DNA of 64,000 nucleotides from Alicyclobacillus pomorum DSM 14955 (GTDB taxonomy: Bacteria; Bacillota; Bacilli; Alicyclobacillales; Alicyclobacillaceae), in the NCBI RefSeq assembly GCF_000472905.1, contig NZ_AXAR01000007.1, positions 124,001-188,000 on the forward strand, written 5' to 3'. Each line of letters begins with the position of its first letter. Position 1 is the stretch's first letter. Below the pieces are notes generated by a model that saw only the letters and a list, made by a program, of their open reading frames with translations, was not told the origin of the DNA and ran no database searches. Positions 43,496-51,723 of this stretch are shown here, one piece after another. The position numbers and the translations under genes were made by a program.

Positions 43496-44785
43496 GTGCT
43501 CACTCAAAGGCCACGCGGGACGGCAGACTTACTGCCCGGAGAAGTGGAGCAGTGGAAGCGTCTCGAGGATATCTTTCGGGCGGTCTCCCGGACGTACCAC
43601 TACCAGGAAATTCGGACGCCCGTGTTCGAACACACGGAGTTATTCGCCCGCGGCGTCGGTGAAACGACAGACATCGTGGAGAAAGAGATGTACACGTTCG
43701 AAGACCGCGGCAACCGCAGCTTAACCCTTCGGCCGGAAGGGACAGCTGGCGTGGTGAGAGCGTACGTGGAAAACAAACTGTACGGACTGCCGGATCTGGC
43801 GAAGCTGTACTACGTGGGACCGATGTTCCGCTACGAAAAGCCACAAAAGGGCCGGTGGCGTCAGTTTCACCAGTACGGCGTGGAAGTCCTCGGATCCGAG
43901 GCGCCGGAAGTCGACGTGGAAGTGATTGCGTTTGGTGCCGAATTCCTCACGAAGCTCGGACTCAAGGACGTGCAGGCGGAGGTCAATAGTGTGGGCTGCA
44001 GCGAGTGTCGCCCACGGCACCGGGAAGCTATGGTGGAAAAACTGCGGCCGGTGGCCGATAGGCTGTGCAAGGATTGCCAAAGCCGATTGGACCGCAACCC
44101 GCTGCGCATCTTCGACTGTAAAAACGAGTCTTGTCAGGCCATTTTGCGTGAAGTGGAAGCACCGACGGTGTTGCAGTGTCTGTGCGATGCGTGCCAGAGC
44201 CACTTTTCTGCGGTTACCGAACTCCTGCAGGAGGTCGGCGTTCGATTCGTCATCAACGACCGACTGGTGCGGGGCTTGGACTATTACACGCGCACAGCGT
44301 GGGAGTTCACGGTGCCGGGGTACAGCACAGTCGCTGGCGGTGGACGGTATAACGGTCTGGTCGCTCAAATCGGGGGGCCAGAGACGCCTGGCGTTGGCTT
44401 TGCAGGCGGCATCGAGCGCGCCCTCCTCGTGCTGCAGGAACAGGGGGCTGCCGTGACCGAGCGAAGTCCATTGACTGCCTACGTGGCGGTAGCCGATGCG
44501 CAAGCGTCGCAAACGGCGACGAAGTTGTTGCAGGAATTGCGTTGTGCAGGCATATCTGCAGACAGAGACTACCAAGGCAAGGGCCTGAAGGCACAGTTGA
44601 AAGCAGCCGACCGAGTACAAGCGAAGTACGTGCTGATACTCGGTGAGGAAGAGCTGAAGAGCGGCACCGTGTCAGTCAAGGATTTGGCGACCGGGGAACA
44701 GGTCACTGTTGCCCGCAATGAGATTGTTTCATATCTGAGCGATTTGCAAAATTCCTCTGGAGTGGTTGAGCACGACCAGATGTAG
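43496..44785 (+). CDS. hisS: Histidyl-tRNA synthetase
   Basis: Class II synthetase charging tRNA-His. RPRGTADLLP at the start, motif 2 YYVGPMFRYEKPQKGRWRQFHQYGVE, histidine motifs RGLDYYTRTAWE and GGGRYNGL, motif 3 GVGFAGGIERALLVL, and the C-terminal anticodon-binding domain. GTG 43496 lies eight bases after AAAGGAGG; upstream in-frame codons are in the T-box terminator region. 429 residues. The last 16 codons (from LSDLQNSSG on) fall inside a repeat element also found at 50.5 kb, so the C-terminus may have been altered by insertion. Confidence 0.96.
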   Translation: MLTQRPRGTADLLPGEVEQWKRLEDIFRAVSRTYHYQEIRTPVFEHTELFARGVGETTDIVEKEMYTFEDRGNRSLTLRPEGTAGVVRAYVENKLYGLPDLAKLYYVGPMFRYEKPQKGRWRQFHQYGVEVLGSEAPEVDVEVIAFGAEFLTKLGLKDVQAEVNSVGCSECRPRHREAMVEKLRPVADRLCKDCQSRLDRNPLRIFDCKNESCQAILREVEAPTVLQCLCDACQSHFSAVTELLQEVGVRFVINDRLVRGLDYYTRTAWEFTVPGYSTVAGGGRYNGLVAQIGGPETPGVGFAGGIERALLVLQEQGAAVTERSPLTAYVAVADAQASQTATKLLQELRCAGISADRDYQGKGLKAQLKAADRVQAKYVLILGEEELKSGTVSVKDLATGEQVTVARNEIVSYLSDLQNSSGVVEHDQM

Positions 44786-44864
44786 TGCTTTCCTAATGCC
44801 GAAAACATCGTATACTGTGCTGCACCAGTTGTTCGTCGTGATTTTGAAAATTGCCGATCTGACA
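44736..44864. repeat. Inverted-repeat element, copy 1 (3' end of hisS)
   Basis: The left end TGAGCGATTTGCAAAATTC (44736-44754) is identical over 19 bases to 50491-50509, and similarity goes on for about 15 more. The right end, around GATTTTG at 44840 and TGACA ending at 44864, resembles the right end of the other copy in degenerate form. The interior differs and includes the possible aspS -10 TATACT. Confidence 0.55.
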
Positions 44865-44882
44865 GAAAGGGTGTGATGCAGC

Positions 44883-46685
44883 GTGACGCAGCAGTATCGT
44901 ACGCATGCCGTGGCAGAAACCGCACACGTCGAAGAAAACACCACCGTTACGTTGTCCGGTTGGGTACAGCGACGGCGCGACCTCGGTTCGCTGATGTTTG
45001 TGGATCTCCGAGATAGGAGCGGTATTGTGCAGTTGGTGTTTGACCCCGAACGCGGAACGCCGGACGACGTCATGCAACGGGCGGATCAGTTGCGCAACGA
45101 GTACGTGATTACGGTCGGAGGACAGGTGGTCCGGCGCGACCCAGGTGCTGTCAATCCGAAGATTGCCACGGGCCACATTGAAGTGGTGGTTTCGACACTG
45201 ACTATCCTGAACGCAGCGAAGACGCCGCCGTTCTACATCCAGGACAACATCGACGTGGATGAGTCACTGCGTCTGAAGTACCGCTATCTGGACCTGCGGC
45301 GGCCAGTCATGCAGAACATGTTGATGGTCCGCCACAAGGCAGTCAAGGTATTTCGCGATTTTCTGGACAAGCACGGATTCATCGAAGTGGAGACGCCGAT
45401 GCTGACGCGCAGCACGCCGGAAGGCGCACGGGACTACCTCGTGCCGAGTCGTGTACACCCAGGCGAATTCTACGCTTTACCGCAGTCGCCTCAGTTGTTC
45501 AAGCAGCTGCTGATGGTCTCTGGTCTCGAGCGGTACTTCCAATTCGCGCGGTGTTTCCGTGACGAGGACTTGCGTGCAGACAGACAACCGGAATTCACAC
45601 AGCTAGACATTGAGCAGTCGTTCATCCCGCTCGACGAGTTCCAGGCCATGATGGAAGAGATGATGCAGACGGCGTTCCGCGAAGTGCTGGGCGTAGAAAT
45701 CCCCGCTCCTTTTCAGCGAATGCCATACCGAGAGGCCATGGAGACCTACGGATCTGACAAACCGGACCTGCGCTTTGGCTTGCCGCTTGTGGACATCAGT
45801 GAGTATGTCAGGGACGCAGACTTCCGCGTATTCCGTGAGGTGCTGGATAACGGCGGTGTGGTGAAAGCCATTTCCGCTCCAGGGTGTGCAAAGTACTCGC
45901 GCAAACAGACGGACGAACTCGTCAAATTTGTCCAGGCGTACGGACTCAAGGGTCTGGCCACCATTGCGGTGCAGGGTGAAGAACTGAAGTCCTCCATCGC
46001 AAAGTTCTTCTCGGAAGATCAGCTGCGCGCGGTCGTGGCAGCAGTCGGAGCAGCGGACGGAGACTTGGTGCTCATTGCTGCGGCGGATAGGCCCACGGTG
46101 AACCAGGCGCTGGGCGCACTGCGGCAACATTTGGCGCGGACATTGAACCTGATTCCGGAAGGTCAGTTCAAGTTTGTGTGGATCACGGACTTCCCGCTGC
46201 TCTCCTACGACGAAGAACAGGGGCGCTATGTCGCGGAACACCATCCGTTTACCATGCCAAACTTGGAAGATCTTCCGTTATTGGACACAGATCCGGGCGC
46301 GGTGCGAGCGCAGGCTTACGACTTGGTGCTCAACGGCTTTGAGCTGGGTGGCGGCAGTATGCGCATCTACCAGCGCGAGATTCAGGAAAAAATGTTCTCG
46401 GTGCTTGGCTTCACCAAGGAGCAAGCGTATCAGCAATTCGGCTTCCTGCTTGACGCGTTTGAGTATGGAACGCCGCCGCACGGCGGCATTGCCTTCGGTA
46501 TTGACCGTTTGATTATGATTATGGGAAATGCCAAGTCACTGCGCGACTGCATTGCGTTTCCGAAAACATCGAGTGGCACCGACTTGTTGACCGACGCGCC
46601 GTCCACCGTCACGGAGGCGCAGTTGGAGACGCTGCACCTCGAACTCCGGACCTCCGCGTCTCATGCGCCCGTCGGTTCGAACTGA
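44883..46685 (+). CDS. aspS: Aspartyl-tRNA synthetase
   Basis: Class IIb synthetase. N-terminal OB fold ([25 protein letters not shown]), motif 2 [26 protein letters not shown], the bacterial GAD insertion domain around residues 300-400, and motif 3 [13 protein letters not shown]. 600 residues. GTG 44883 follows AAAGGGTG. Whether it is discriminating or also charges tRNA-Asn cannot be told from motifs here; gatCAB is not in the window. It is 97 bases after hisS and probably shares its T-box transcript. Confidence 0.96.
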
Positions 46686-46756
46686 TGGTGCAATGCTTTT
46701 GTGGCACCCGGTTTCACTTGCATGAGAAACGGTCGCGGTGGTAACATAAGACCACG

Positions 46757-46780
46757 AGTTTCAACGACAGTTTCAACGAC
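46757..46780 (+). repeat. Tandem 12-base repeat
   Basis: AGTTTCAACGAC occurs twice in a row (46757-46768, 46769-46780), ending four bases before a TTGACG box. It could be an upstream control site of the candidate small RNA. Confidence 0.6.
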
Positions 46781-46783
46781 GCG

Positions 46784-46813
46784 TTGACGCGTTCCCTGCG
46801 CTGTTGGTGTAAA
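46784..46813 (+). promoter_or_regulatory. Possible promoter of the candidate 6S RNA
   Basis: TTGACG (46784-46789), spacer 18, TGTAAA (46808-46813). The -10 box is weak. Confidence 0.35.
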
Positions 46814-47010
46814 CCTAAGGTGTTTTGAGCCAACACCCGACCATAGGGAGCCCGGCGTCTTGACTGTGAGCACATGCCTCAACGACACTTCTGTTTGCGA
46901 AGTGTTCGTACGTGGACTTGCGAGCAGGGCAAGCAGGGCACCCACCTGCTGAGAGCAGGCTTCAAAACGGTGGGTTTCACGGCAGCCGCGGGGCAATCGT
47001 ATACTTACTC
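46806..47010 (+). ncRNA. ssrS: Candidate 6S RNA
   Basis: No convincing ORF lies in the 589 bases between aspS and rarA, yet the region ends in a strong terminator. In B. subtilis a 6S RNA gene (bsrA) lies in this neighbourhood. Two stretches resemble conserved 6S parts: TTGACTGTGAGCACATGCCTC (from 46861) against the E. coli GGTTGGTGAGCATGCTCGG, and GGCTTCAAAACGG (from 46958) against GCCTTAAAACTGC of the central bubble. GGTGTAAACC (46806) can pair with GGTTTCAC (46973) to close a molecule of about 180 nucleotides. Ends are estimates; the call is tentative. Confidence 0.5.
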
Positions 47011-47040
47011 AGTGACCTCCCTCTCGGAGGTCACTTTATT
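47011..47040 (+). terminator. Terminator after the candidate 6S RNA
   Basis: Perfect 10-base stem AGTGACCTCC/GGAGGTCACT (47011-47020, 47026-47035), loop CTCTC, then TTATTT. Confidence 0.85.
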
Positions 47041-47099
47041 TGTGCAGCGAGCCCACTAAAGATATGCCGAACGGTGGATATCGGCATGTTGCAAATCGC

Positions 47100-47108
47100 T
47101 GGTATAAT
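47100..47108 (+). promoter_or_regulatory. Extended -10 promoter before rarA
   Basis: TGGTATAAT, a perfect TG-N-TATAAT. No -35 box at the right distance. The 13 bases ending at 47101 (TTGCAAATCGCTG) equal the right end of the repeat element at 50.5 kb. The remaining 165 bases to the rarA start show nothing I can name. Confidence 0.5.
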
Positions 47109-47274
47109 AAAGTCGACTGCAATACTGGGAAATGAGGAACCGACATGCGAGACATCATGGACTTACACAGCAACACCGTGACAAAACCGGCACCCAAGAC
47201 ACGGTGGGCAGGGGCCGAGGCAGCAGTCGGAGACGACGGTCATTGCGAATTCCGTAGGTGGAGGCGTATTCAAC

Positions 47275-48633
47275 GTGGACTTGTTTGACTTTGCAGGTGA
47301 GGCTGAGCAATCGGCAACGGCGCCGCTGGCGCATCGCATGCGTCCGCAGACACTGGACGACATCGTCGGGCAAACGTCAGTGGTTGGGCCGGGGAGCCCG
47401 CTTCGCAAGGCGATTGAACGCGACCTCTTGATGTCGGTCATTCTGTACGGCCCGCCGGGGACGGGGAAGACCAGTTTGGCCCAGGTTATCGCCCACGCCA
47501 CGAAGGCGCGATTCGAGACCTTGAACGCGGTGACAGCCGGCGTCGCTGACATTCGCCAAGTGGTGCAGCGAGCGACCGATGAGCGGTCCCTGTACCGCAG
47601 AAAAACGGTAGTTTTCATCGACGAGATTCACCGCTTCAACAAAGCCCAGCAAGATGCTCTGCTGCCTTACGTGGAGCAAGGGACCATTGTGCTGATTGGG
47701 GCGACCACGGAAAATCCATACTTTCAAGTCAACCCGGCACTTGTATCGAGATCTCACGTATACCGTCTCGATCCGCTCTCCGACGAAGATATTCGCACCT
47801 TGCTGGAGCGCGCGCTGCGGGACGAAGCGAACGGTCTCGGCCGCCACCAGGCCGAAGTCTCAGAGGAGGCTTTGGATGCACTCGTCAAGTACAGTGGCGG
47901 TGATGCACGACGTGCCTTGAATGCACTGGAAATGGCTGTGCTCACTGCGCCTGTGCAGTCGGATGGCCGAGTGACCGTCGACCTCGAACATGTGCGCGAA
48001 TCTGTGCAAGGTCGGCAAGTTCTCTACGACACCCGGGGAGATGAGCACTATGACACCATCTCCGCGTTTATCAAGTCGGTGCGGGGCTCCGACCCGGATG
48101 CGGCCATCCTGTGGCTTGCCAAGATGCTGGCAGCTGGCGAAGACCCGAGGTTCATCGCGCGCCGCCTGGTGATTCTCGCAGCAGAAGACGTCGGCAACGC
48201 GGATCCGCAAGGCTTGCAAATGGCCACGGCAGCATTACATGCGGTGCAGGCGATTGGCATGCCGGAGGCGAGAATTGTCCTGAGTCAGGTGACGACCTAT
48301 CTGGCGTGCGCGCCGAAGTCGAACGCGGCGTACGTCGCCATCAACAAAGCCTTGGCGGATGTAGAATCTGGGATTCGGTTGCAGGTACCACCTCATTTGA
48401 GAGGGTCGGGCTATTCTGGCGCGAAGGAGCTAGGCAGTGGTGTCGGATACATTTATCCACACGACCACCCAGAGGAAGCCAAGGCACAAAGTTACTGGCC
48501 ATTAGGTACGGAGCCGAGAGTGTACTACGTACCGACAGCGTTCGAAAAGGTTCAGCGCCCATCTTGGAGACCGGTATCGGGCGCGATGGTGGGCGATGGG
48601 GAGATTGATACTGAAGGGAAGTTGAATCTGTGA
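47275..48633 (+). CDS. rarA: Replication-associated recombination protein RarA (MgsA)
   Basis: AAA+ clamp-loader-like ATPase acting at stalled forks. MRPQTLDDIVGQTSVVGPGSPL is the family start; Walker A GPPGTGKTS, Walker B VFIDEIHRFNKAQQDALLP, sensor 1 GATTENPYF, and the C-terminal MgsA region DPDAAILWLAKMLAAGEDPRFIARRLVILA. 452 residues, normal. GTG 47275 follows GGTGGAGG. Its stop overlaps the cymR start. Confidence 0.95.
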   Translation: MDLFDFAGEAEQSATAPLAHRMRPQTLDDIVGQTSVVGPGSPLRKAIERDLLMSVILYGPPGTGKTSLAQVIAHATKARFETLNAVTAGVADIRQVVQRATDERSLYRRKTVVFIDEIHRFNKAQQDALLPYVEQGTIVLIGATTENPYFQVNPALVSRSHVYRLDPLSDEDIRTLLERALRDEANGLGRHQAEVSEEALDALVKYSGGDARRALNALEMAVLTAPVQSDGRVTVDLEHVRESVQGRQVLYDTRGDEHYDTISAFIKSVRGSDPDAAILWLAKMLAAGEDPRFIARRLVILAAEDVGNADPQGLQMATAALHAVQAIGMPEARIVLSQVTTYLACAPKSNAAYVAINKALADVESGIRLQVPPHLRGSGYSGAKELGSGVGYIYPHDHPEEAKAQSYWPLGTEPRVYYVPTAFEKVQRPSWRPVSGAMVGDGEIDTEGKLNL

Positions 48634-49040
48634 AAATATCCACCAAAGGACGTTACGGATTGATGTTGTTGGTCGATTTGGCGATGAATCAGGCGGGGGC
48701 GCCGGTGTCGCTCAAATCGATTGCGGATAGGCAAGGGTTGTCGGAACACTACCTGGAGCAGCTGATTGCGCCGCTGCGCAACGCTGGCATTGTGCGAAGT
48801 ATCCGGGGCGCCTACGGAGGTTACGTGCTTGCGAAGCCGACCACGGAGATACGCGTATCGGATATCATTCTCACCTTGGAAGGGCCGATTTCGATTGTGG
48901 ACGAGGACGTCCACGATGGATTGGAAGAACTGTGGGAGCGCTTGCGACAGGCCATCGTTTCAGTACTCGAATCGCTGACCCTGCAAGATCTGGTGGATAT
49001 GAAACACCAAGGCGGCGAAACGTTTATGTATTACATTTGA
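48630..49040 (+). CDS. cymR: Rrf2 family regulator CymR
   Basis: 136-residue Rrf2 winged-helix repressor. MKISTKGRYGLMLLVDLA, then SIADRQGLSEHYLEQLIAPLRNAGIVRSIRGAYGGY. It has no Cys at all, so it cannot bind a cluster as IscR does, which matches CymR, the cysteine-metabolism repressor that works with CysK. GTG 48630 overlaps the rarA stop (GTGA), and the cysteine desulfurase gene follows. Order rarA-cymR-desulfurase is as in B. subtilis. Confidence 0.9.
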   Translation: MKISTKGRYGLMLLVDLAMNQAGAPVSLKSIADRQGLSEHYLEQLIAPLRNAGIVRSIRGAYGGYVLAKPTTEIRVSDIILTLEGPISIVDEDVHDGLEELWERLRQAIVSVLESLTLQDLVDMKHQGGETFMYYI

Positions 49041-49087
49041 GGCGCTTCACCGAGCGCTGACGTCACATCGGAAGAAGGAAAGGGACT

Positions 49088-50218
49088 ATGATTTACCTCG
49101 ACAACGCAGCGACGACGCAAGTGCATCCAGATGTATTCGAGGCAATGCAGCCATACCTGGCACTTCAGTACGGAAACCCGTCGAGCATTCACGCGTTCGG
49201 CAGAGCGGCCAAGGCAGCGCTGGATAAGGCGCGCGCGCAATTGGCGTCGTTCGTTGGGGCATATCCGCAGGAGCTGACGTTCACCAGCGGCGGCACTGAG
49301 GCCATTCACGCTGCTCTGTTTGGGTCGTTTCTCGCGTCTGGCGGCCGAAAGCACTTGGTCACGACGGCGCTGGAACACCATGCCGTGTTGCACACATGTG
49401 ACTTCCTCCGGACGTTGGGATGCGAAGTCACCATCGTCGAGCCGGCCGCAGATGGACGGATCCGCGTGGAAGATGTAGTGGAGCGGGTGCGGCCCGATAC
49501 GTTCCTGGTCTCAGTCATGGCGGTCAATAACGAAACGGGTGCGGTCCTGCCTGTGACGGACATCGCCCGCGCCGTGAAGGAAAAGGTACCAACGGTGCAA
49601 GTTCACTCGGATATGGTTCAGGCGTTAGGTACGCTACGGCTGGACTTACACGAGTCCGCCGTGGATTTCGCGAGCTTCTCTGGCCACAAAGTGTACGGTC
49701 CGAAGGGGGTTGGCGCCCTGTATATACGCAAGGGCTCCAACTGGAAGGCGGTGTTGCACGGCGGGGCACAGGAAAGAGAGCGCCGCGCGGGAACCGAAAA
49801 CGTGGCAGGGATTGTGGGATTTGGAGCTGCTGTACATCGGTTGCACGAGCATTGGGACGCGCATATTCGACACATCATCGGTCTTCGCGACGCGTTTTGG
49901 CGTGCGCTTCAGGGGCTGCCAGGTGTCACTCGAAATAGCCCACAGGATGCGGTGCCGAGTATTCTGAATGTCTGGTTCGAAGGCGTGCGCAGTGACACCT
50001 TGTTGATGCGGCTGGACATGGCGGGTGTCGCTGCTTCGGCGGGATCGGCCTGTACAGCAGGATCCTTGGAGCCCAGTCACGTCCTCCAGGCTTGCGGGTA
50101 TCCGGACGAGCGCGTCCGTCAATCCATTCGATTCAGTTTCTCCGAGTTCAATTCGGAAGAAGAAGTGACGCGCGGTGCAGAAATCACGAGGGACATTGTA
50201 CAGGAGCTGAGGCGCTGA
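49088..50218 (+). CDS. iscS: Cysteine desulfurase (IscS/YrvO type)
   Basis: 376-residue PLP enzyme supplying sulfur, in B. subtilis YrvO chiefly for tRNA 2-thiolation through MnmA. Motifs: YLDNAATTQVHPDV, TSGGTEAIHAAL, VNNETGAVLPV, PLP lysine in FSGHKVYGPKGVGALY, RAGTENVAGIVG, and catalytic Cys in SAGSACTAGSLEPSHVL. ATG follows AAGGAAAGGG. The expected next gene, mnmA, is not here; a 450-base gap with a repeat element follows. Confidence 0.93.
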   Translation: MIYLDNAATTQVHPDVFEAMQPYLALQYGNPSSIHAFGRAAKAALDKARAQLASFVGAYPQELTFTSGGTEAIHAALFGSFLASGGRKHLVTTALEHHAVLHTCDFLRTLGCEVTIVEPAADGRIRVEDVVERVRPDTFLVSVMAVNNETGAVLPVTDIARAVKEKVPTVQVHSDMVQALGTLRLDLHESAVDFASFSGHKVYGPKGVGALYIRKGSNWKAVLHGGAQERERRAGTENVAGIVGFGAAVHRLHEHWDAHIRHIIGLRDAFWRALQGLPGVTRNSPQDAVPSILNVWFEGVRSDTLLMRLDMAGVAASAGSACTAGSLEPSHVLQACGYPDERVRQSIRFSFSEFNSEEEVTRGAEITRDIVQELRR

Positions 50219-50490
50219 CGTGTGGGCTGTCGCAACGCACAAGCGTAACAAATTTATCACAATCGGGCCAAGGGGAATGATTGGAGAATTTGTCGAATTT
50301 CCATTTGCTTCATTGCCAGGACACGCATCGTGCGTTACCATGACAGAGGCGACACGATTCGTCTTCGGTCGTCTCCTGAACTAATGCTTTAGCAAGATAA
50401 TATTTCGAGCACGGTGGCAGTTCTCCCTTGCTTGCGTTTTGGCCGTCTGGTGGTTTATGGAGAACCGACTGTGGACAGGCTAATACAAGG

Positions 50491-50583
50491 TGAGCGATTT
50501 GCAAAATTCGGCTCGAGTGGTTCAGTGTTAGGATGTCTCTAGCGTCTGGACTTTGATTCGTCCGATTTTGCAAATCGCTGACA
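50491..50583. repeat. Inverted-repeat element, copy 2
   Basis: AGCGATTTGCAAAAT (50493-50507) and its exact complement ATTTTGCAAATCGCT (50565-50579) bound about 90 bases. TGA and TGACA flank the ends. The left 35 bases match the copy in hisS at about 30 positions. No ORF inside. The rest of the 450-base gap after the desulfurase gene (50219-50490) shows only a short ACGCA/TGCGT hairpin near 50325 and no gene. Confidence 0.65.
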
Positions 50584-50671
50584 GAGTGTCAGACAGAGAA
50601 CCTTGTTCGAATCGGCCGGTGGGGCCCAACACACAGTCCTTTTCGAACACCACACAAAAGGAGATTTGGCT

Positions 50672-50863
50672 ATGCGTTGTCCGCACTGTAACTGCAGAGA
50701 TATCGGCAAGATTGGTGCAAACCAGTTCTATTGCTGGAATTGCTTTATGGAGTTTAACGTGTCCGGATCTGACGTTCGCGTGTATGAAGTGGCTGAAGAC
50801 GGGTCGCTCGTCGCGGTAGATGACGCGATACAGTCGATGCAGCTCGGGACTGGAACATTATAG
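50672..50863 (+). CDS. Small zinc-ribbon protein
   Basis: 63 residues. Two knuckles, MRCPHCNCRDIGKIG and YCWNCFMEF, give CxxC-x(n)-CxxC, a zinc ribbon; the acidic tail (VYEVAEDGSLVAVDDA) follows. ATG 50672 has AAGGAGA seven bases before it. Close small zinc-ribbon proteins are common in Bacilli with unknown function. It has its own terminator. Confidence 0.8.
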   Translation: MRCPHCNCRDIGKIGANQFYCWNCFMEFNVSGSDVRVYEVAEDGSLVAVDDAIQSMQLGTGTL

Positions 50864-50895
50864 GCTGAACAGAGCATGGAACTGATGCTCGCTGC

Positions 50896-50923
50896 AAAAG
50901 ACGCCGTTTCGGCGTCTTTTTTT
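50896..50923 (+). terminator. Terminator after the zinc-ribbon gene
   Basis: Stem AAAAGACGCCG/CGGCGTCTTTT (50896-50906, 50910-50920), loop TTT, run of T. Confidence 0.9.
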
Positions 50924-50941
50924 GATCCACGCTGATGTACG

Positions 50942-51319
50942 TCAGCGGATGGAAGGAAGGCCAAACAACCCCACGGCCGCGGCTGCAAATCCGAGCACGG
51001 CCGATGCTAGGTAGTACATGATGGCGGTAGAGAACCGGCCCTCGCGCGCTAACATCGTGAACTCGTACGTGAACGTGGAAAACGTGGTGTACGCTCCGCA
51101 AAAACCGGCGCCGAGAAACAGCATGGCATGCGGTTCCGCGTGAGGTAACCAGTTTCCCAAACCACGCGTAAACAGCCCAAGTAGAAACGAACCGCTGACG
51201 TTGATAAACAGGGTCGCAAATGGGAACGACACGACCAGTCGCTCACCAATCCACTTGGACAGCGCGTAGCGTACCAGCGCTCCAATCACACCACCACTGC
51301 CAACCAACACCCACGTCAC
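50942..51319 (-). CDS. crcB: Fluoride channel CrcB/FluC, subunit 1
   Basis: 125-residue four-helix fluoride exporter subunit. Motifs: GGVIGALVRYALSKW, FPFATLFINVSGSFLLGLF with the conserved Asn, and GAGFCGAYTTFSTFTYE with the Phe-box region. GTG 51319 follows GGAAAGGA; the frame is open further upstream but that part is antisense to the second copy. It overlaps the stop of the upstream crcB gene by four bases. Confidence 0.92.
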   Translation of the reverse strand: MTWVLVGSGGVIGALVRYALSKWIGERLVVSFPFATLFINVSGSFLLGLFTRGLGNWLPHAEPHAMLFLGAGFCGAYTTFSTFTYEFTMLAREGRFSTAIMYYLASAVLGFAAAAVGLFGLPSIR

Positions 51320-51723
51320 GGGTCCACATCCTTTCCCGTTGAAACGGTGTGCAGCCTGGACTGACGCATTGCCAAGGTGTACCCGGCACCGGATGCCAGT
51401 ATGCCGCCAATGTAGGAGGCCACAGCGTACAGTCCAAACCACCCCCACAGCCCGCTCCGCCAGAGTGACCAGAGCTCCACATTGAGCGTGGAGAAGGTGG
51501 TAAAGGCACCGATAAATCCTGTTCCAATGCCCGCCCGTACGTGCGGATGAATCGGGAGGCGCTCCACGGTAATGGTGTAAAACCAGGCAAGTCCAAAACT
51601 GCCGCACAGATTGATGAGTAACGTGGCGATGGGAAATCCGCGCAGGGTTCCGAGTGCCTCGGTCACGAGGTACCGGGCGCACGCTCCCAGAAATCCGCCG
51701 ATGGCGACTGCCAGGTATACCAC
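51316..51723 (-). CDS. crcB: Fluoride channel CrcB/FluC, subunit 2
   Basis: 135 residues, first gene of the pair. AIGGFLGACARYLVTEAL, FPIATLLINLCGSFGLAWFY and GTGFIGAFTTFSTLNVE are the same three motifs as in subunit 1. Tandem overlapping crcB genes usually make the two antiparallel subunits of one heterodimer; charge differences would decide which faces which way. GTG 51723 follows GAGAGGGGG. No fluoride riboswitch was recognised in the leader. Confidence 0.92.
   Translation of the reverse strand: MVYLAVAIGGFLGACARYLVTEALGTLRGFPIATLLINLCGSFGLAWFYTITVERLPIHPHVRAGIGTGFIGAFTTFSTLNVELWSLWRSGLWGWFGLYAVASYIGGILASGAGYTLAMRQSRLHTVSTGKDVDP

Follow-up and report, generated by a model that had tools for sequence, protein, structure and literature searches.

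The 3' end of hisS in Alicyclobacillus pomorum DSM 14955 is very probably the product of a mobile element. A nonautonomous, MITE-like element bounded by terminal inverted repeats of ~16-18 bp would have inserted into the last codons of the gene, duplicating the 4-bp target ATCT and putting an element-encoded tail and stop codon in the place of TERV and its stop. The element would have been moved by a transposase of the DDE type that acted on its arms in trans. In terms of the protein, the insertion exchanged TERV and its stop for the 15 residues SDLQNSSGVVEHDQM and the stop of the element, a net gain of 11 residues. The features discussed here are collected in Table 1. Most lie in the window, that is, the whole stretch of 64,000 nucleotides that was analyzed, which corresponds to positions 124001-188000 of one contig (the genome assembly comprises 3.40 Mb in 36 contigs).

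Table 1. Features of the hisS-aspS locus, further members of the repeat family in the window, and candidate genes elsewhere in the genome that end in an arm. Positions are those of the window unless a locus handle (L) is given.
Feature	Position	Strand or protein end	Details
hisS, histidine--tRNA ligase	43496..44785	+	NCBIfam TIGR00442, 501.4 bits vs. cut-off of 286.75
Target duplication ATCT, left copy	44733..44736	.	4 bp, the modal duplication of the family
MITE-like element copy	44737..44856	+	120 bp; long form with an arm spacing of 103
Left arm AGCGATTTGCAAAAT	44738..44752	+	exact
Element-encoded residues SDLQNSSGVVEHDQM, 15 aa	44738..44782	+	from the reading frame and the C-termini of relatives
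Right arm of hisS copy	44841..44855	-	decayed, 3 mismatches
Target duplication ATCT, right copy	44857..44860	.	from the sequence
Stranded original hisS end	44861..44876	+	once ...CTG ACA GAA AGG GTG TGA (LTERV-stop)
aspS, aspartyl-tRNA synthetase	44883..46685	+	named by sequence recognition; reading frame intact
Solitary family arm	47086..47100	-	1 mismatch
Second paired copy in window	50492..50580	.	strong hairpin; without clear target duplication
iolG-like Gfo/Idh dehydrogenase	L010 424-1521	ends ...IYLSDLQNS-stop	NCBIfam E 6e-35, below family cut-off
Patatin-like fragment	L112 1104-1517	ends ...QRCAK-stop	NCBIfam E 1.6e-5, below family cut-off
D-amino-acid transaminase	L119 534-1517	ends ...TSQPFSK-stop	NCBIfam E 9e-72, below family cut-off
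Alpha/beta-hydrolase-like protein	L144	-	TGA stop from arm; named by recognition

The hisS copy matches a long copy of the family, used as the query, at 82% identity over 122 bp (E 7.8e-29). Its arms can be read as an inverted repeat of 14 nt that is 86% complementary, with 88 nt between the two halves, and the stop codon of HisS (TAG, 44783-44785) also falls inside the element. The start codon of the gene is likely the GTG that follows AAAGGAGG (assigned by eye). An earlier note on this DNA, made from the sequence alone, had pointed to 19 bases (TGAGCGATTTGCAAAATTC, 44736-44754) that recur exactly at 50491-50509, and had placed the last 16 codons of hisS in an element extending over 44736-44864. 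The exact recurrence is borne out by sequence matching, and the final codons do read LSDLQNSSGVVEHDQM-stop. The element proper is narrower than proposed, and only 15 of the 16 residues are new: the first (L) has a codon lying partly in the target repeat and was therefore already encoded by the uninterrupted gene.

Removal of 44737-44856 and one ATCT in silico restores a HisS that ends in ...EIVSYLTERV-stop. This reconstructed, element-free protein is 11 residues shorter than the present one, and its stop lies 6 bp before the aspS start. The sole same-genus relative (G001) lacks the element, and its HisS, which is 80% identical, ends in ...DQLVSYLSTRV-stop. When the reconstructed empty site is aligned with the DNA of this relative, the insertion point is free of gaps; those that occur are all downstream, close to the aspS start. 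The idea that an insertion replaced the original stop of the gene, as the earlier note had it, is thus upheld by the 4-bp target duplication together with the gap-free alignment of the empty site. The stranded original end of hisS overlaps the putative ribosome-binding site of aspS; judged from the sequence, the putative ribosome-binding region is kept in place by the insertion. The first bases of aspS align with the relative L062. Just downstream from aspS is a 6S RNA (RF00013, 74.6 bits; window 46790-46998, +).

A match to HisS was found in 61 of 61 genomes (60 relatives and the A. pomorum genome itself), and the C-termini and downstream DNA were read in 29 of the 60 relatives with a match. 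These C-termini differ from one another in both sequence and length. SDLQNSSGVVEHDQM is present in none of them, and that of the nearest relative ends in VSYLSTRV-stop, in agreement with the earlier suggestion that the final residues of the protein are extra. Among the 37 PDB matches to HisS listed, none extends past query residue 421. As the new residues occupy positions 419-433, the tail is located at the end of the conserved fold or beyond it.

For comparison, 10 long copies were chosen and aligned (the set excluded L001 and L046 as well as L039, which is truncated). The hisS frame is readable in seven of these, hisS included, and the other three are without the GAGCG start. Five of the six other readable copies (L031, L032, L033, L034, and L035) stop before hisS does, at TGA or TAG, and the frame of L038 runs longer than that of hisS. 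As most other readable long copies stop earlier, later point changes probably eliminated such stops and thereby lengthened the tail, and the final QM of HisS is probably the product of the loss of a TAG after insertion.

The element belongs to a family. The window contains eight matches to AGCGATTTGCAAAAT at ≤3 mismatches, whereas 1.36 would be expected; a count of eight was not reached in any of 100 shuffles. The 19-base match reported in the earlier note is not the sole one in the genome, given that the 15-base arm within it recurs 211 times (115 forward and 96 reverse, ≤2 mismatches); a reversed-pattern control yielded three matches genome-wide (1+2). The arm counts in the window and in the genome therefore indicate a dispersed family rather than a chance pair. 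Copies were drawn from at least 146 places among the matches listed, and further stretches were then fetched. The 66 arm pairs obtained were reduced to 54 by dropping six with a spacing of >125 bp and six that were overlapping or doubtful. Arm spacing in these 54 pairs (among the matches listed) is 29-115 bp and clusters near 37, 53, and 103 bp, and we therefore recognize short, medium, and long forms. Arms also occur singly. One of these, near position 1263 of L172, lies in the upstream part of a gpr-like frame (germination protease), beside an rpsT-like gene (both named by eye), and may touch the N-terminal region of the gpr-like frame.

With element ends taken as [G/C]AGCG...CGCT[G/C], exact 4-bp direct repeats flank 13 of the 54 pairs (the hisS copy is one of them), compared with a mean of 0.9 and a maximum of 4 in 1000 re-pairings. 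Repeats of 5 bp were found in five, and of 6 bp in two, of the same 54 pairs. The remaining 41 pairs, among them the copy at 50491, lack an exact 4-bp repeat: either the insertions are old, or some of the boundaries were set wrongly, or the length of the duplication varies.

The family works like a MITE and most probably is one. Its members are short (below ~600 bp) and multicopy and have no internal transposase gene, they are bounded by terminal inverted repeats (the AGCGATTTGCAAAAT arms, in inverse orientation), and they generate a target duplication of characteristic length. A parental IS whose ends match was not detected among the loci and the three transposase families examined, unlike the situation for RUP, which has a presumed partner IS. 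In the A. pomorum genome, DDE_Tnp_1 has four weak matches, none above the cut-off, and DDE_Tnp_1_6 has five, of which four exceed the cut-off, at three places and in short or broken frames. When the DDE_Tnp_1 loci were scanned for arms, L172 had a single arm ~600 bp beyond the transposase remnant, L173 had none, and L171 and L174 had only arm matches with four mismatches. Overall, among the matches examined, the searches with DDE_Tnp_1, DDE_Tnp_1_6, and Y1_Tnp revealed no element bounded by an arm pair. Arm pairs 300-3000 bp apart (≤2 mismatches) occur at seven distinct places in the fetched loci, and three of these (L154, L144, and L025) were rejected as the autonomous partner, with host genes or no evident transposase in them. 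There are also two IS1182-like copies, both cut off at contig ends (L172/L211 at the start of C16, and L173/L212 at the start of C18). Their shared 3' end appears to resemble the arm, having 10 of 15-16 bases in common with it (0.6% of random sites match this well), and we treat this as a lead, not a result.

Short imperfect palindromes that are present in many copies, and in one species among those searched, could also be REP/BIME-type elements moved by a RAYT (Y1-HUH) transposase. However, the A. pomorum genome has no match to Y1_Tnp (PF01797), for which the control was positive in eight of 14 genomes, and the family shows 4-bp target duplications, which are not expected of single-strand HUH transposition. 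Such an origin is very improbable indeed. Another reading dispenses with transposition and takes the sequence to be a host regulatory or terminator hairpin, present by descent or convergence, next to a hisS C-terminus that is variable anyway. The differences among the HisS C-termini of relatives in length and sequence would fit this, as would the copy at 50491, which folds far better than shuffled sequences (z −7.5). The hisS copy, by contrast, is not stable, its hairpin being no better than those of shuffles (z −0.81), and 44600-45000 contains no terminator-like site. Neither copy matches Rfam (a scan of window 44000-51500 returned the 6S RNA only, with no match to the element above the gathering score), and the family is absent from the same-genus relative. 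Above all, the reading is contradicted by the empty site with its target repeats, and we regard it as extremely unlikely.

Two further proposals accept the insertion and assign it a function. The earlier note had suggested that the element brings or surrounds a −10 box for aspS, and TATACT at ~44811 does match TATAAT in five of six bases. It has no −35 partner, however, and there are 0 promoter-like sites in 44600-45000 (0.3 expected); moreover, TATACT is present at that place in 0 of the nine other aligned long copies. The proposed box is therefore not supported, and it is very unlikely that aspS is transcribed from a promoter brought by the element. The new HisS tail could instead be under selection, for example, by altering stability or activity. 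The hisS copy is off consensus at three of 46 coding sites vs. 14 of 67 noncoding sites (p 0.058, uncorrected), a difference that favors selection but is not significant. The same split applied to the nine other copies gives p values ranging between 0.0003, for a difference of the opposite sign, and 1.0, and the tails of orthologues vary freely. As one other copy shows the opposite pattern (p 0.0003), we make no claim of selection, which we consider improbable. Under a MITE-like insertion, the HisS tail would be tolerated rather than useful, because it lies past the region of HisS that can be aligned with solved structures, and because the ribosome-binding region of aspS is retained.

The family appears to be restricted in its distribution. 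The 18-base arm AGCGATTTGCAAAATTCC (≤2 mismatches) has 87 matches in the A. pomorum genome, none in the same-genus relative, and 0-3 in each of 59 other relatives. The exact 18-mer was found in 12 stretches of GTDB genome contigs, with one match each (the A. pomorum genome was possibly excluded there), for a chance expectation of ~7 matches by our own arithmetic. In none of these stretches does a second arm (≤3 mismatches) face the 18-mer as a pair, and a distant blastn search of plasmids returned 0 matches to the family. A literature search on MITEs in Alicyclobacillus gave, among the titles listed, papers on arthropod mites or unrelated topics, and the best match of a search that included histidyl-tRNA synthetase made no mention of that enzyme. 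The repeat family seems to be new.

It is worth asking how often genes end in this element. Among the 54 paired copies (from the matches listed), two coding-like frames run into the element, that of hisS and one in L157; the latter was rejected as a gene based on its low complexity. In a scan of 153 distinct arms, 35 frames, that of hisS among them, had ≥90 codons upstream; of these, 12 were inspected in full and four were judged by eye to be genes (Table 1). The dehydrogenase has its frame, its TATCT target, and the element-encoded peptide SDLQNS, with which it ends, in common with hisS. It is followed by an apparent second Gfo/Idh gene. Although it has no match in the same-genus relative at E 1e-40, a nearest relative was identified in another genome (G007); that of the transaminase is in the same-genus relative. 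In both cases, the nearest relative has a different end at about equal length, so exchange of the tail rather than its extension is likely. On sequence grounds, the four further gene ends in arms seem to be candidates, and they are weaker cases than hisS, for which the target repeat and the empty site exist.

Protein ends that are encoded, with their stop, by a MITE have already been described in Coxiella (PMC5896051), and this kind of event is not new. QMITE1 and QMITE2 of Coxiella burnetii are short inverted-repeat elements with ~50-60 copies each; among functional annotated genes, the insertions occupy the 3' end, so that the terminal residues and the stop come from the element (pntAA is an example, with a 42-bp overlap and AQTHRRQLKGAR-stop) (PMC5896051). 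As in hisS, the element thereby confers terminal residues and a stop on a functional gene. The two cases are likened by description only: QMITE1 is 300-400 bp and QMITE2 150-190 bp, vs. 120 bp for the hisS copy, the direct repeats are 2-3 or 7-11 nt, vs. 4 here, and the host is different (PMC5896051). In-frame palindromic insertions have been described for Rickettsia and enterobacteria, and the Rickettsia palindromic elements form in-frame fusions with Rickettsia genes, in a total of 19 reading frames (PMC2229807). Like the element studied here, they are palindromic repeats by which conserved proteins gain residues; the paired copy here differs in that it terminates its protein, in a single clear case (PMC2229807). 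The same source describes the enterobacterial ERIC/RU-1 and RU-3, the Neisseria Correia/NEMIS, and the pneumococcal RUP elements as forming stem-loops in RNA, several with reading-frame fusions; Correia, RUP, and ERIC (~107-155 bp) are MITE-like, as is the family here, and are likened to it by description only, as they belong to other hosts (PMC2229807).

A bolder, and in our view doubtful, reading is that this one-species MITE family serves as a ready-made gene ender that repeatedly swaps the tails at the 3' ends of genes (hisS, the iolG-like dehydrogenase, and the D-amino-acid transaminase), with the host surviving. The left end of the element would then start with TGA, read a short SDLQNS peptide, or soon meet TAG. 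If this were true, essential genes would be included, and the transposase would perhaps lie outside the three families searched. The hisS case leaves knowledge of such bacterial elements unchanged. It is, however, a clean case in which an essential enzyme of universal conservation had its end rewritten by mobile DNA; the target repeat and the empty site are both available, and the case serves as a warning to annotators and phylogeneticists that C-terminal residues may derive from transposons.
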